Origin: Myxococcus sp.
GTDB taxonomy: Bacteria > Myxococcota > Myxococcia > Myxococcales > Myxococcaceae
Assembly (NCBI GenBank): GCA_014879945.1
Contig: JACSRE010000143.1
Location: forward strand, 1 to 46,691
Direction of reading: 5' to 3'
DNA length: 46,691 nt
Within the stretch, counting starts at the first letter, position 1. Each line of letters begins with the position of its first letter. This document shows, in pieces, positions 20,652 to 28,811 of the stretch. A program made the position numbers and the translations under genes. Under the pieces are notes generated by a model. The model saw only the letters and a list, made by a program, of their open reading frames with translations, ran no database searches and had not been told where the DNA came from.

Positions 20652-23600
20652 TCACCCACCGTAGAGGACGAAGCCCGCCCAGTAGTACGGCGACCTGAAC
20701 CGCGGCTGCTTCGCCACCACCTGCTGCGCCCGCGACAGCGCCTGCTCGTGCGACAGGCCCAGCTGCAGCACCCCGACGTAGAACGCCTTCATCAGCTCGG
20801 CCGTCGCCCGGTCGTCCACCTTCCACAGGCTGGCCACCACCGCCTTCGCGCCCGCGTGGAGGAACCCGCGCGCCAGGCCGATGAAGCCCTCACCGCGCAC
20901 CTCTTGGCCCAGCGCCGTCTCGCACGCGCTCAGCGTCACCAGGTCGGCCGGCAACGACAGCCCGTACACCTCGGCCAACGACAGGAAGCCGTCGATCGCT
21001 CTCCCGTCTGGCGCGCGCCGCGACAGCACCAGGCCCGAGCGCTCCGGGTGCTCGGTGTCCAGCACGCCGTGGGTCGCGAGGTGAACGACGCGCGGCCGGC
21101 CCGACGCGTTGAGGCGTGACTTCGAGGCGTCGAAGTCGAGCAGCACCGTGCGCTTCGGCTCTGGCACCAGCGCGCCCAACGCCTCGCACTCCGCCCGGCT
21201 CGCCAGCAGTCGCTGGTAGTGCGCCTTCTCGCCTGCGCGGAGCTGGTTCGGCGGCGGCTCCACCGGGGCCCCACCCAGTCGTGGGTCATCGGCCTCGAAG
21301 ACCGGGTCGCCGATCGCCACCAGCTCCGAGGTCGGCCCCGCGCGCTTGAGCGACCGCTGCGCCTTCATCACGCTCAGGCTCGGCGTCGACAGCACCGGCA
21401 GCTCGGGCACCAGGGCCGCCCAGGGCACCAGGTGGAGCGGCCCGTCGGCCACCACGATGAGCCGCCGCTTGCCCGACAGGCGCGCCTCGAACGGCCCCAC
21501 CAGCGCCGCCCGCAGCGACCGCCGCGTCGCCTCGGCCTTCGCGTCTGCCGCCTCGAGCCGCGCCAGGCGCGCGGCGGCGGTCTCACCCTCGACGTCGAGG
21601 TTGCGCGCCGAATACAGCGTGTGGAGCGCCTCGGCCTGCTCTCCGAGCGCCGCCGACGCCTCGAGCAGGTACGCCGTCGGCGCCGCGCCGCCCAGCACCA
21701 GCGCGTAGTTGCCGTTGCGGCCCAGGGAGTACTCGACCACCAGCGAGCCCGGGCCGACGAGCGCCTCCACCTCGGCCGCCGTCGCCAGCGGGAGCGTGGA
21801 CAGGCTCGCCACCTTCGGGTCCACCGCCTGCACCTTCGCGCGCAGGGCCTCGTACGCCGCCAGCTTGAGCTCGAGGAGCGCCTCCTGCGGAGGGCTGCCT
21901 GCGTCGGGGCTCGCGGTGGCCTTGAACCGGCGCGCGGCGTTCTCGAGGTCACGAATCTCGGCGCGCAGGGAGTCCTCTTCAGACAGCAGCGCGTCGTGCC
22001 CGACTGGGCGGTCGGCGTCGACCAGCATCAGGAAGTCGAGCAGCGACCTGGCCCGGGCGCGCTCGCTCGCCTCGAGCGCCTTCTCGAACCACGCGCGCTC
22101 GCCCTTCACCTGCGCCTGGAGCGCCGCCGCGGCGACCCACAGGTCGTAGAACTTGCGCACGCCGGCCGAGTAGTAGGCGCGTCGATCTTCGCTCGCGATG
22201 CGCTCCCGCAGCGTCTCTGACATCGCCAGCGCCTGCTCGGCCCAGGCCACCGCCTCGGGGTAGTGCTTCGCCATCAGCTCCGCGCGCCCGAGCCGGTAGT
22301 ACGCGTACGCCTCCCACGACACGTCGCCGAGGCGACGAAAGAGCGCGACGGCTTGGTGCAGCGGCGCCATCGCCTCGGCCGGCCGGTTCAGGCGCCCGTA
22401 GGCCGAGCCGAGCGAGGTCAACGTCTGCGCCTCGCCGCGCACCGAGCCGATCTCCCGTCGCAGCCGCAGGGCCTCGGCGTGGCGGGTCAGCGCGACGTCG
22501 TCGAGCAGCGTCGACTCCATCTCTCCCGCGGCGTCGAGGCTGAACGCGAGCCCCTGCTTGTCGCCGGCCACGCGCCGCACCTTCACGGCCTCGAGGTAGA
22601 AGGGCAGGGCGCCCTTCCAGTCCGCGTCGAAGTCGGAGCGCAGGCCGCCGAGGTCGTGCAGCGCGTGGCCGATGGCGCGCCCGTCGTGCGTCAGCAGCGC
22701 CGCCGCGTGGCCCCGCTCGAAGTGCTCGGTGGCCTTCTTCTTGTCGCCCAGCGCCTTGTGGCACCAGCCCAGCGAGCTCTCGTACTCGGCGATGAGGTGC
22801 GGGTGGCCGAGCGCTCGCACGCGCTCCCGTCGAGGCACCAGCTTCGCCACGCACTGGGCGTGCTCTCCGCGCTCCGCCAGGTCGTCGGCTTCGGCCACGT
22901 CGACGCGCGCCTGGAGGAGCTCGTCCTCACCCGCCGCGGCCCGCGCGGCCAGCTCGTGCGCCACCGCGGCCTCGAGCCGGCCCTGCTCGTGGTCGATGGC
23001 GGCCAGGCCCAGGTGCGCCGACGCGACGGTCTCTGGGGTCGGGCTCTGCAGGGCCTGCTCGAAGGACGACGCCGCCGACGGGTCGCTCACCCGCAGCAGG
23101 AGCTCGGCGGCCGAGAGCGTGAGCTCCGTCGAGCGCGCCGCGTCCTTCAGCGTCCTCGCGTCAGCCGCCAGGCGCAGGAGCGCGTTCGCCGCGCTCGTCA
23201 GCCCCTCGGCGGTGGCCGGGGTGGTGGAGGCGAGCGCGGCCAGCGCGGCGACGTCGTTCGCCTCGAGCGCCGCCCCGTCGGTGCTCGCCCGCGCCTCGAT
23301 GGAGAAGGCGGAGGACGGCCACGCGGCCCGGGGCGCCAGCACCTCGAGCTCCACGCCCTCGGTGTCGCCGAACGCCACCCGCTCGGGCGTCGAGAAGGGC
23401 CGGCGATCGATCGACCGCCGCGCGCCGCCACGCACGACGACGAGCTGGGCGCCGCTCTGCCCGGGGCGCAGCACCACCTCGACGCCACCGGGAGGCAGGC
23501 GGAACCGCTGCGGCTCGGCGGTCAACGTGCCCTCGAGCGCCCGGCCGAGCTGCAGCTTCGGCGTCGAGGGTTGGCACGCGAACGAGGCGAGGCCGAGGGC

Positions 23601-23684
23601 CAGGAGGTGAAGCCGCACGAGGCGAGGGTCGCACACCGGGGCGCGTGCAGGCTGGGCGCGGCTCGCGGGCGGGGTGGTCGCCAT
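20652..23684 (-). CDS. TPR-repeat CHAT-domain (caspase-like) protein
   Basis: The protein has 1010 aa from ATG 23684. The N-terminus holds a lipoprotein- or signal-like segment (LALGLASFAC). A GTG at 23618 would give a tighter signal and is a real alternative start. Residues about 60-140 look like a beta domain. About 150-560 is a long array of TPR-like helical repeats (AIGHALHDLGGL, AQTLTSLGSAYGRL, YYRLGRAELM). From about 690 to the end is a CHAT protease domain with its catalytic pair: LATHG (His872) and LSACET (Cys921). CHAT proteases (separase/caspase fold) cut partner proteins after an activating signal. Here the protease follows an ECF sigma factor and a membrane anti-sigma-like protein, 11 bases downstream of the latter. 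Confidence 0.9.
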   Translation of the reverse strand: MATTPPASRAQPARAPVCDPRLVRLHLLALGLASFACQPSTPKLQLGRALEGTLTAEPQRFRLPPGGVEVVLRPGQSGAQLVVVRGGARRSIDRRPFSTPERVAFGDTEGVELEVLAPRAAWPSSAFSIEARASTDGAALEANDVAALAALASTTPATAEGLTSAANALLRLAADARTLKDAARSTELTLSAAELLLRVSDPSAASSFEQALQSPTPETVASAHLGLAAIDHEQGRLEAAVAHELAARAAAGEDELLQARVDVAEADDLAERGEHAQCVAKLVPRRERVRALGHPHLIAEYESSLGWCHKALGDKKKATEHFERGHAAALLTHDGRAIGHALHDLGGLRSDFDADWKGALPFYLEAVKVRRVAGDKQGLAFSLDAAGEMESTLLDDVALTRHAEALRLRREIGSVRGEAQTLTSLGSAYGRLNRPAEAMAPLHQAVALFRRLGDVSWEAYAYYRLGRAELMAKHYPEAVAWAEQALAMSETLRERIASEDRRAYYSAGVRKFYDLWVAAAALQAQVKGERAWFEKALEASERARARSLLDFLMLVDADRPVGHDALLSEEDSLRAEIRDLENAARRFKATASPDAGSPPQEALLELKLAAYEALRAKVQAVDPKVASLSTLPLATAAEVEALVGPGSLVVEYSLGRNGNYALVLGGAAPTAYLLEASAALGEQAEALHTLYSARNLDVEGETAAARLARLEAADAKAEATRRSLRAALVGPFEARLSGKRRLIVVADGPLHLVPWAALVPELPVLSTPSLSVMKAQRSLKRAGPTSELVAIGDPVFEADDPRLGGAPVEPPPNQLRAGEKAHYQRLLASRAECEALGALVPEPKRTVLLDFDASKSRLNASGRPRVVHLATHGVLDTEHPERSGLVLSRRAPDGRAIDGFLSLAEVYGLSLPADLVTLSACETALGQEVRGEGFIGLARGFLHAGAKAVVASLWKVDDRATAELMKAFYVGVLQLGLSHEQALSRAQQVVAKQPRFRSPYYWAGFVLYGG

Positions 23685-23695
23685 GCTCGCCTGGC

Positions 23696-24430
23696 TCAGT
23701 CTGTCGGGGCGAGGGTGAGCGCGTACTCGGCGAGCTGCTCCGCGCCCGAGCGCAGGTCGATGCGGTAGCGGCCGCGCGCCCACCCGCTCGCCGGGAGCTC
23801 CACGTGCACCGCGACCGCGTCGGCGCGCGACGGCGGGCCCCGCCACACCTCTCCTGAGGGGCCCGTCACCACCACCTCCCACGACGCGCGCGGCGGCTCA
23901 CCCTCGAGGCCGAGCTCGAGCTTCAGCACGCCCAGGTTCCGGGGGACGGGCAGCGGGCGCGCGTCGTCGCCGGCGCGCACCGACACCGGCCGCAGCGAGC
24001 GCTCGACGTCGACGGTGCCGCGTGGCCACGCCAGCAGCGCCACGGCGCCGGCCACCGCCAGCGCGCTGGCGAACGCGAAGGGGAGCCGCCCCGAGAAGCG
24101 CGACCGAAGCGAGCCGGGCGCGGCCTCGGCCGGGTGTTGCTTCGCGCGGGCTCGCAGCGCGCGCGCCGTCGCGACCTGGGAGCGCCACTGTTCGGACGCC
24201 CGGCACAGCGCCTCGACCTTCGCCGCGCGCGCCGCCGAGAGCCGCCCGGCCAGGTACGCGTCCACCAGCTCGCCCTCGGAGGCCCGCAGCGCCTCGAAGT
24301 GCGCCTGGTGCTCCAGCGCCGCCTCTTCGAGCGCCTGCGCCTGCACCTCGGGTAGCTCGCCGAGCAGGTACGCGAAGGCCTGGTCCTCCGAGAGCGACAT
24401 CAGAGGGGGTGAGGTGGGGCCCGGATTCAT
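23696..24430 (-). CDS. Membrane-anchored anti-sigma-like protein
   Basis: 244 aa. The N-terminal about 90 residues (FAYLLGELPEVQAQALEEA, LRASEGELVDAYLAGRLS) match the helical anti-sigma domain type that lacks the zinc-binding HxxxCxxC motif. One transmembrane helix (117-135) follows, then a periplasmic beta domain ending in LPASGWARGRYRIDL. ATG 24430 overlaps the sigma-factor stop codon (ATGA), the usual coupling of sigma and anti-sigma genes. It should hold the ECF factor at the membrane until an envelope signal, or perhaps the CHAT protease, releases it. The role is inferred from fold and position. Confidence 0.78.
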   Translation of the reverse strand: MNPGPTSPPLMSLSEDQAFAYLLGELPEVQAQALEEAALEHQAHFEALRASEGELVDAYLAGRLSAARAAKVEALCRASEQWRSQVATARALRARAKQHPAEAAPGSLRSRFSGRLPFAFASALAVAGAVALLAWPRGTVDVERSLRPVSVRAGDDARPLPVPRNLGVLKLELGLEGEPPRASWEVVVTGPSGEVWRGPPSRADAVAVHVELPASGWARGRYRIDLRSGAEQLAEYALTLAPTD

Positions 24431-25026
24431 TTCGGCTCCCCCAGGCGGTTTCCGACGCACGTCTCGAGGCGCGCCCGCAGGCGGAACGCCCGCACCCGCA
24501 GGGCCTCGACGGTGGTCCCCAGTGACTCGGCCAGGCGCTGCCGCCCCGCGATGCGCGAGGGCCCATCGTCGCGGTAGTAGCGCATCACCAGGTCGCGCTC
24601 GGCCTTCACCAGCGCCTCGAGGCAGGCGTCCAGCGCTCGCAGGCGCAGCTCGTCTTCGGGCTCGTCGGGAGGCGGCGCGGCGAGGGGGCGGTCCTCCAGC
24701 GTCACCTCGCGACGCTCCTTGCGTCCGGCCTCGAGGGCCACCATGCGCGCGACGCCGGCCACGAAGGCATACGGGGCGGCGGTGCGCACCTCGCCGGCCT
24801 GGGCCCGGCGCGCCACCCGATCGAGCGTCTCGTCTGCCAGGCCCGCGGCGTCTCCCAGCCCACGCCAGCGGAAGAACGCCTCAACGCGGTCGCGCACCTC
24901 GCGGTACCGTTGCGCCCGGGCCCCTGCGTCGCCCCCTCCAAGGAAGTCGAGCAACACCTCAAAGGCGGTGGCTTCGAGCGTTCTTCGGGGGTTGCTGGGC
25001 GCCACCTGCGACACGCCCCGACACAA
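24427..25026 (-). CDS. RNA polymerase ECF-type sigma factor
   Basis: About 199 aa. It shows a sigma-2-like helical part (LADETLDRVARRAQAG, APYAFVAGVARMVALEAGRKERR) and a sigma-4-like part with a helix-turn-helix (SRIAGRQRLAESLGTTVEALRVRAFRLRARLE). It lacks region 1 and region 3, as ECF factors do. The start is uncertain: the frame opens at TTG 25026, with GTG 25014 and GTG 25005 as alternatives, none with a strong ribosome binding site. It is the first gene of a three-gene unit with the anti-sigma-like and CHAT genes, and stands back-to-back with the 25.0-25.3 kb regulatory region. Confidence 0.8.
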   Translation of the reverse strand: MCRGVSQVAPSNPRRTLEATAFEVLLDFLGGGDAGARAQRYREVRDRVEAFFRWRGLGDAAGLADETLDRVARRAQAGEVRTAAPYAFVAGVARMVALEAGRKERREVTLEDRPLAAPPPDEPEDELRLRALDACLEALVKAERDLVMRYYRDDGPSRIAGRQRLAESLGTTVEALRVRAFRLRARLETCVGNRLGEPK

Positions 25027-25123
25027 CCGCAGTCGGTGTGGCCAGACAAGGGTGAAGCGGCTCGACAGATTCCTTCACCTGCCCCGGCTGTGGCGGGTCT
25101 GTGCCTACGTTGCAGGCAGGTGT

Positions 25124-25140
25124 GGCATGGGTGCCATGCC
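25124..25140. repeat. Inverted repeat GGCATGG-gtg-CCATGCC upstream of a sigma-54-type promoter
   Basis: A perfect 7-bp inverted repeat with a 3-base centre. The core GGCATG (either strand) recurs at 25190-25196 and 25204-25209. It lies about 70-80 bases upstream of the GG/GC elements at 25203-25218, within the range where enhancer-binding activators of sigma-54 bind. Confidence 0.5.
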
Positions 25141-25209
25141 TGTCACAGGGCGCCGGTCGGACTCGGCGTTCTAACCACTCGGAATAGCGGGCATGGCCTG
25201 ACAGGCATG
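25135..25209. repeat. 11-bp inverted repeat pair, arms 53 bases apart
   Basis: CATGCCTGTCA at 25135-25145 is the exact reverse complement of TGACAGGCATG at 25199-25209. The left arm shares bases with the 25124-25140 repeat, and the right arm overlaps the upstream half of the sigma-54-type promoter. That placement would suit an activator that also occludes the promoter, or a looping arrangement. Which of these applies is not determined. Confidence 0.5.
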
Positions 25210-25218
25210 TCCCTTGCT
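25203..25218 (+). promoter_or_regulatory. Candidate sigma-54 (-24/-12) promoter
   Basis: AGGCATGTCCCTTGCT matches the consensus TGGCACG-N4-TTGCW with two changes. The invariant GG (25204-25205) and GC (25216-25217) are separated by exactly ten bases. Transcription would start near 25229, about 54 bases before ATG 25283 of a short ORF with a good ribosome binding site. Repeated GGCATG elements lie upstream. Confidence 0.6.
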
Positions 25219-25270
25219 GACAAGGTGCGTCATGCAGGGTTTCGACTCAGGCCGCTGGGCGAAACGTGAC

Positions 25271-25277
25271 GGAGAAG
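25271..25277 (+). promoter_or_regulatory. Ribosome binding site of the 48-aa ORF
   Basis: GGAGAAG, five bases before ATG 25283. It decides between this start and an in-frame ATG at 25214, which would lie upstream of the predicted sigma-54 transcription start. Confidence 0.65.
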
Positions 25278-25282
25278 AAGCC

Positions 25283-25429
25283 ATGGAAACCACCACCTTC
25301 ATCAAGCCCCGCTTTGCCATCGGCGCCCTGTTGGGCACCGGGGTGATGCAGGTGCAGGTCAAAGCGGCCACCGAGAAGCCCGCGGTGCGCGTGGTGTTGC
25401 AGACGCCGGCGGTCTCGACGCTGAGCTGA
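25283..25429 (+). CDS. 48-aa small protein of unknown function
   Basis: A 49-codon ORF including the stop, reading METTTFIKPRF..., then a hydrophobic stretch (FAIGALLGTGVMQV), QVKAATEKP, and a tail ending TPAVSTLS. All but about three codons end in G or C, as in the certain genes around it, and the ribosome binding site is strong, so it looks truly translated. The hydrophobic stretch followed by VKAA resembles a weak secretion signal, which would leave a peptide of about 20 residues, but this is inference. It has its own candidate sigma-54 promoter and precedes glmU by 57 bases. I recognise no family. Confidence 0.6.
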   Translation: METTTFIKPRFAIGALLGTGVMQVQVKAATEKPAVRVVLQTPAVSTLS

Positions 25430-25486
25430 CCGTCCTGGCGCTTGTGCCGTTGATTTCGAGGGCCGCTGTCTGACAGACCGGCCCAC

Positions 25487-26896
25487 ATGAACCCACCGCT
25501 CGCCGCCGTCGTGCTCTGTGCCGGAAAAGGCACGCGCATGGAGTCCGTGACCGCCAAGGTGCTGCACCCGATTCTGGGTCGTCCGCTGGCCTGGTACCCC
25601 ATCACCCGCGCGTTCGAGTCTGGTTGTCAGCAGGTCGTCGCCGTCATCGGCCATCAGGGCGAGCAGGTTCGCGCGACCATGAGCAAGGCCTTCGAGGGCC
25701 AGGCGCTCGCGTTCGCGGTTCAGGAGCAGCAGCGGGGCACCGGCGATGCGGTCGCCGCGGCGCGTGGTTGCCTCACCGGGTTCACCGGCGCCGTCCTCAT
25801 CCTCATGGGAGACGTGCCGCTCCTGACGGCCGAGACCCTCACCAGGCTCGTCTCGGTGTACCGCGCCAGCAAGGGCCCGCTCGCGATGGTGACGTGCAAG
25901 CCGCCCGACGCCACCGGCTATGGCCGGGTGCTGCGCGGGGCTGGGAGGCGGGTCGAGGGCATCGTCGAACACAAAGACGCCACGCCCGAGCAGCGCCTCA
26001 TCACCGAGATCAACGCCGGCCTCTACATCGCCGACGCGCGCTTCTTGTGGGGCGCGCTCGAGACGCTCACGCCCGCCAACGCGCAGGGCGAGCTGTACCT
26101 CACCGACATCGTGGCGAAGGCCGCCGCCCTGGGCGAAGTCGTGGTGGTCGAGGCCGACGCGCGTGAGGTCGAGGGCGTCAACGACCGCGCGGAGCTGGCC
26201 GAGCGGGCCGAGCTGCTGCGGGCGCGCATCAACCGGCGGCACATGAAGGCCGGGGTGTCGCTGCAGCACCCCCAGTCCACCTTCATCGACGAGGGCGTCG
26301 AGATCGGCCCCGACACCGTCATCGGGCCCAACGTCACCATCTCGGGCGAGTGTGAGATTGGCAGCGGCGTCGTCATCGGCCAGGGCTCGGTGCTCACCCA
26401 CTCCACCATCGGCGACGGCACCGAGGTCAAGCCGTACTCGGTCTGCGAAGAGGCGGTGGTGGGGCCCCGCTGTCACGTGGGCCCGTTCGCGCGGCTGCGC
26501 CCCGGCACCGTGCTGGACGAGGGCGTGCACGTCGGCAACTTCGTCGAGACCAAGAAGACGCGCCTGAAGAAGGGCAGCAAGGCCAACCACCTCGCGTACC
26601 TGGGCGACGCCGAGATCGGCGCCGGCTGCAACATCGGCGCGGGCACCATCACCTGCAACTACGACGGCGTGGACAAGCACCAGACCGTGCTGGGCGACGG
26701 CGTCTTCATCGGCTCCGACACACAGCTGGTGGCGCCCGTCACCATCGGCGATGGGGCCTTCGTGGCGGCGGGCAGCACCATCACCGAGAACGTGCCGGCG
26801 CAGGCCCTGGCGCTCTCGCGCGCGCCGCAGACCATCAAAGAGGGCTGGGCCGAGCGCCGCCGCAAGGTGCTGGCGGGCCTGAAGTCGAACCGCTGA
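25487..26896 (+). CDS. glmU: Bifunctional UDP-N-acetylglucosamine synthesis enzyme GlmU
   Basis: 469 aa. The N-terminal half is the uridylyltransferase (LCAGKGTRM nucleotide loop, [25 protein letters not shown]). The C-terminal half, from about 255, is the left-handed beta-helix acetyltransferase with hexapeptide repeats ([16 protein letters not shown]) and the NCNIGAGT-like [15 protein letters not shown] acceptor site. It converts glucosamine-1-phosphate to GlcNAc-1-phosphate and then UDP-GlcNAc, the precursor of peptidoglycan and lipopolysaccharide. glmS follows 79 bases downstream, so two steps of the same pathway are adjacent. Length and motifs are those of the family. Confidence 0.96.

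Positions 26897-26975: not shown

Positions 26976-28811
<1,836 letters not shown>

Follow-up and report, generated by a model that had tools for sequence, protein, structure and literature searches.

A conserved microprotein gene ahead of glmU-glmS in Myxococcus sp. and its probable enhancer-activated sigma-54 promoter

We analyzed a 46,691-nucleotide stretch of Myxococcus sp. DNA (contig JACSRE010000143.1 of assembly GCA_014879945.1; hereafter the window), in which glmU (25487–26896, + strand; TIGR01173, 571.7 bits) and glmS (26976–28811, + strand; TIGR01135, 829.5 bits) follow a short ORF that ends 57 bases ahead of glmU. This ORF, proposed in a first-pass annotation of the DNA, was confirmed: it runs on the + strand from ATG 25283 to TGA 25429, encodes 48 residues (METTTFIKPRFAIGALLGTGVMQVQVKAATEKPAVRVVLQTPAVSTLS) and has G or C at 45 of its 48 third codon positions. 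It is preceded by GGAGAAG at 25271–25277, within a ribosome-binding stretch (25268–25282, + strand; GAAGGAGCAG in relatives) whose identity among congeners is 0.73. Upstream, divergent and outside this unit, lie a gene for a sigma-70/ECF-like factor (24427–25026, − strand; a weak match to TIGR02989, 45 bits, under the cut-off), a gene for a putative zinc-finger anti-sigma-like protein and one for a CHAT/TPR protein; of six congeners, three have this cluster (20652–25026, − strand) conserved beside the locus. Genera are given here by working labels (g1, g4 and so on), g1 being the window's own genus.

A 48-residue frame with a ribosome-binding site is not rare in itself, as four similar ORFs occur on the + strand of the window. 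We therefore rely on conservation. A search with the 48 residues found the homologous frame in every one of the seven congeners, and also in one further genus. A profile built from those eight sequences detected weaker relatives elsewhere in the family, and nearly all that were examined immediately precede glmU, in the same orientation; homologues precede glmU in most sampled genera of the family. A broader profile was run against 145 genomes from the order and matched 84, all of them among the family's 96 and none among the remaining 49; this profile drew on many of the family genomes or on close relatives of them. Adjacency to glmU is evidence that does not depend on the profile. The frame, start and stop of the 48-residue gene are conserved, as expected of a protein-coding gene. 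Identities at codon positions 1, 2 and 3 are.83,.83 and.57 in congeners, and the third position is also the freest to change in g4, g20, g8/9 and g3/7. Comparative sequence thus indicates that the small gene is almost certainly real.

The encoded proteins share the core (V)T.F(L)KP.F.I......L.V.V.A. Neither Pfam nor NCBIfam gave a match, and no credible match was found among PDB sequences. AlphaFold2 predicted a beta-hairpin (residues 9–16 and 21–28; hairpin pLDDT about 83–91) with a disordered tail and a pTM of 0.33. Within the literature collection searched, there was no report on a gene upstream of glmU or on Myxococcus glmU with sigma-54. The microprotein is thus a previously unclassified protein family, whereas the kind of promoter proposed for it below is already known.

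Sigma-54 promoters carry GG and GC exactly 10 bases apart within TGGCACG-N4-TTGCW. Transcription starts about 12 bases after the GC and needs sigma-54 together with an activator ATPase, whose enhancer lies roughly 70–200 bp upstream. The GG-N10-GC element that the first-pass annotation had reported ahead of the ORF is present on the + strand at 25203–25218 (AGGCATGTCCCTTGCT), with GG at 25204–25205 and GC at 25216–25217, 10 bases apart. Its position-weight score is 14.8, and the match alone is weak (local shuffle p=0.007); in a pattern search of the window's own genome, GGCAYGNNNNTTGCW occurred six times, against seven for the reversed control, which is chance frequency. Conservation, rather than the quality of the match, makes the element credible. 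The GG-N10-GC spacing is kept in all seven congeners, one of them weak, as well as in 4/4 g4 genomes, in g11 and in g23. The weak congener is G090, in which the -24 box is degenerate (CGGTTCG; CGGTTCGTCCTTTGCA), so that the element is well kept in six of seven. In the seven-genome alignment, the stretch containing -24/-12 (25199–25234) has an identity of 0.79, versus 0.47 in the preceding 45 bp. Sigma-54 matrix scores were 10.3–14.8 in g1, 13.4–15.8 in g4, 14.0 in g11 and 12.2 in g23; the matrix is based on the published consensus, which agrees with the one in PMC9765219. Sites in g4 and g11 (TGGCACGAACCCTGCT, TGGCACACACCGTGCT, TGGCGCTCAAGTTGCA) differ in sequence yet are nearer to the consensus, which is what a functional site should show; the g4 -24 box is TGGCACA in two of four genomes and exactly TGGCACG in one. 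The genome has one copy of rpoN (PF04552, 218 bits). The first-pass annotation would have been contradicted by homologous regions that keep neither the ORF frame nor the GG/GC spacing; both are kept in congeners, the frame also across the family and the spacing also in g4, g11 and g23. These comparisons support its reading of the element as a sigma-54 promoter, which we consider highly probable, with a predicted start at about 25229.

Conservation at the locus peaks farther upstream, where it exceeds even that of the gene. This segment, which we call element A (25091–25150, + strand), has a mean pairwise identity of 0.85 among the seven congeners, and its core of about 43 bp (25105–25147; CTACGTTGCAGGCAGGTGTGGCATGGGTGCCATGCCTGTCACA) reaches 0.88, versus 0.47 in the 45 bp downstream. 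It contains the dyad TGGCA-N4-TGCCA (25123–25136) and lies at about -124 to -82, within the usual enhancer range. Element A keeps a distance of 87–88 bp to the GG of the -24 box in each of the seven congeners, even as the DNA between them drifts. A matrix of element A derived from g1 found a copy on the same strand in g11 and copies on the opposite strand in 4/4 g4 genomes, the g4 matches being weak (p 0 to 0.03, 60 shuffles). In g23, where the promoter match is present, the element A hit is marginal and overlaps that genus's own promoter; in genera without a sigma-54 site the matrix found nothing convincing. Fixed spacing, co-occurrence with the sigma-54 site and tolerance of inversion are the behavior of a sigma-54 activator's enhancer, and element A is likely to be an upstream activating sequence (UAS), a putative binding site for an activator. 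By their conservation, both it and the -24/-12 element are under selection. We also considered element A as a motif shared by a regulon and rejected this, because the exact dyad core occurs in its own genome at this locus alone.

The first-pass annotation had pointed to GGCATG repeats and an inverted repeat upstream of the promoter, where activator sites of sigma-54 promoters are found. Conservation instead picks out the longer block of element A (about 25091–25150, core 25105–25147) with its fixed distance to the promoter; the two repeats are not the signal. Four GGCATG copies are present (25124, 25190 and 25204 on the + strand, 25135 on the − strand), and four in 130 bp exceed local chance (shuffles, P=0.0005); congeners, however, hold just 0–2 copies, and the one at 25190 is unconserved. 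The 11-bp inverted repeat (25135–25145 with 25199–25209) is likewise present but not conserved as a unit: one arm belongs to element A and the other to the -24 box, each conserved on its own, and the arms are not complementary in all congeners. Between element A and the promoter there is a weak, tentative IHF-like site (25173–25185, + strand; TAACCACTCGGAA, with TAACCACTTGAAA and TAACTCTTTGAAT in relatives). Compared with the consensus YAANNNNTTGATW, it has one mismatch in two congeners and two to three in the others, and is suggestive only.

An in-frame ATG at 25232–25234 (+ strand) lies at the predicted transcript start (GCGTC/ATG), 17 codons before the METTT of the 48-residue form. The g4 proteins (MxxxxDTQ...) begin at its homologue, the sole plausible start in that genus, so the g4 message would be nearly leaderless; in g4 (L105–L109) the microprotein ORF opens at the predicted sigma-54 transcript start, again GCGTC/ATG. 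A 65-residue reading from ATG 25232 is accordingly in frame and has its parallel in g4, but the leader codon positions carry no coding signal in g1, which favors the 48-residue form there. ATG 25232 is probably not the main start of the window's gene.

We propose that an enhancer-activated sigma-54 promoter, consisting of a UAS and a -24/-12 element, transcribes the conserved microprotein gene ahead of glmU-glmS, an account that we hold as a whole to be probable. An enhancer-binding protein would sit on element A, some 100 bp upstream, and in response to a signal would open sigma-54 RNA polymerase through a DNA loop. Transcription would then start at about 25229 and the microprotein would be made at once. 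The same transcript would probably add to glmU-glmS expression, on top of a leaderless promoter belonging to glmU itself.

This glmU promoter is probable from its sequence, with a start at or beside the ATG. In the window it comprises TTGATT (TTGACC in relatives), a spacer of about 17 bp and TCTGACAGAC (25450–25486, + strand), and it is conserved in the seven congeners. In most genera TTGACG-N17-TAATTC, or a similar sequence, ends 6–8 bases before the glmU ATG and in many cases overlaps the small ORF's stop codon; the form TTGACG-N17-TAATTC-N7/8-ATG is seen in genera other than g1. In g1 the -35-like TTGACC is retained with an atypical -10, and a sigma-70 scan gave no match in the window itself. 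A GC-rich inverted repeat (25459–25482 in the window) flanks the -10 position and ends 0–4 bases before the ATG. A repeat of this kind is found upstream of glmU in L003–L007, L021 and L105–L110; its arms vary between genomes yet are mostly complementary, its center is conserved (TCTGACAGA, or TCTGC-AAAG in g4/g13/g19), and folding gave modest z-scores (0.5 to -3.0).

No convincing terminator was found in the window between the small ORF and glmU (one weak hit; shuffles 0.3 +/- 0.5), and so the sigma-54 transcript may well feed glmU-glmS too; such read-through is plausible, its probability falling a little short of even. If sigma-54 control of glmU-glmS were the main purpose of the promoter, the short frame might be a leader peptide that controls the translation or transcription of glmU. 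The lack of a strong terminator fits this, as does the fact that the small gene adjoins glmU in nearly all loci examined. However, amino acids are conserved in the predicted hairpin, unlike in attenuator leaders, and glmU apparently has its own promoter after the ORF. We consider a leader peptide unlikely.

Among the genera tested, only g1, g4, g11 and g23 have a strong sigma-54 site (score of at least 10) at the corresponding position; every other genus scored at most 6.6. These other genera keep the gene without a sigma-54 element or UAS, indicating that such control is not essential to it. One might accordingly suppose that the small gene is real while the conserved elements belong to an operator and an ECF or sigma-70 promoter, GG-N10-GC being incidental, since in other genera the small gene does without a sigma-54 match and pattern matches of this level arise by chance. 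Against this, the g4 and g11 sites have drifted toward the consensus (TGGCACG-N4-CTGCT, TGGCGCT-N4-TTGCA) while GG and GC stay unchanged, and element A keeps a constant spacing at a distance suited to an enhancer. An incidental GG-N10-GC is improbable, somewhat more so than a leader peptide. Control of the divergent sigma-factor gene (24427–25026), which begins a short way upstream and is transcribed outward from this intergenic region, was rejected as very remote: G091, G094 and G090 lack the gene next to the promoter but retain both element A and -24/-12 (the -24 box being degenerate in G090), so that the elements serve the small gene/glmU side, toward which the -24/-12 element also points.

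In a GlmU tree, effectively unrooted for want of a valid outgroup, g1 and g4 cluster with g13 and g26, whereas g11 and g23 fall outside this cluster. By this placement, the enhancer-dependent sigma-54 promoter is either old with several losses or was gained more than once. Myxococcus-like genera carry the small gene ahead of glmU without a sigma-54 promoter at the locus; one of them, g20 (L092–L104), has another conserved stretch, TTTCA-N10-ATTTTTC-TCTTGGATTGT, in its place. In g10, g15, g16, g17 and g13 (L085, L088, L089, L090, L110) the small ORF directly follows a PilZ-type gene, the domain being Pfam-confirmed for g10 and g13 and assigned by sequence resemblance for g15, g16 and g17; this neighbor suggests a link to c-di-GMP signaling in these five genera.

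That the microprotein acts on GlmU or GlmS is doubtful, and a role of the beta-hairpin protein itself in UDP-GlcNAc synthesis is speculative. Equally tentative is a fuller version, in which the microprotein would be a family-specific regulator of UDP-GlcNAc synthesis, its hairpin binding GlmU or GlmS, and a sigma-54 activator dedicated to the locus would induce it together with glmU-glmS. The locus matters on two other counts: an unclassified small-protein family is fixed upstream of an essential cell-wall gene in a family that includes predatory, multicellular bacteria, and sigma-54 input at UDP-GlcNAc genes, absent here in Myxococcus-like genera, offers a testable example of control gained or lost. 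A published regulon prediction reports that M. xanthus cannot do without sigma-54 and that cell-wall COGs are enriched among predicted sigma-54 targets in Myxococcia (PMC12316311); no mention of glm genes was found in the text of that study.

Among known systems, Nla28-type promoters of M. xanthus have TGGCACG-N4-TTGC(T/A) with sites for an enhancer-binding protein upstream (PMC9765219). The -24/-12 consensus and, putatively, the upstream activator sites are alike in the present promoter; by contrast, element A is a long single-copy TGGCA-N4-TGCCA block and, by eye, not tandem CT(C/G)CG(C/G)AG half-sites, and Myxococcus-like genera themselves are without this promoter at the locus. The E. coli glmY sRNA promoter depends on QseF/GlrR and sigma-54, with a UAS and IHF, and is tied to the supply of glucosamine and envelope precursors (PMC6075780). 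Here, a protein rather than an sRNA is encoded, in cis, directly before glmU-glmS. QseF sites (TGTN12ACA or TGTCN10GACA) were absent upstream of the -24 element in every congener, and positions 24900–25700 gave no Rfam match of any kind up to E 5, GlmY/GlmZ sRNA included. The protein product, cis location, different UAS and lack of an Rfam match together indicate that the locus is not a member of the glmY system. What the two would share is an activator-dependent sigma-54 promoter with a UAS, a small product, a link to envelope precursors, and an overlapping or additional sigma-70 promoter that gives basal expression. Should the microprotein prove to be the regulator sketched above, the arrangement would parallel the GlmY circuit of enterobacteria, with a protein in place of the sRNA, and would adjust the supply of cell-wall precursors.
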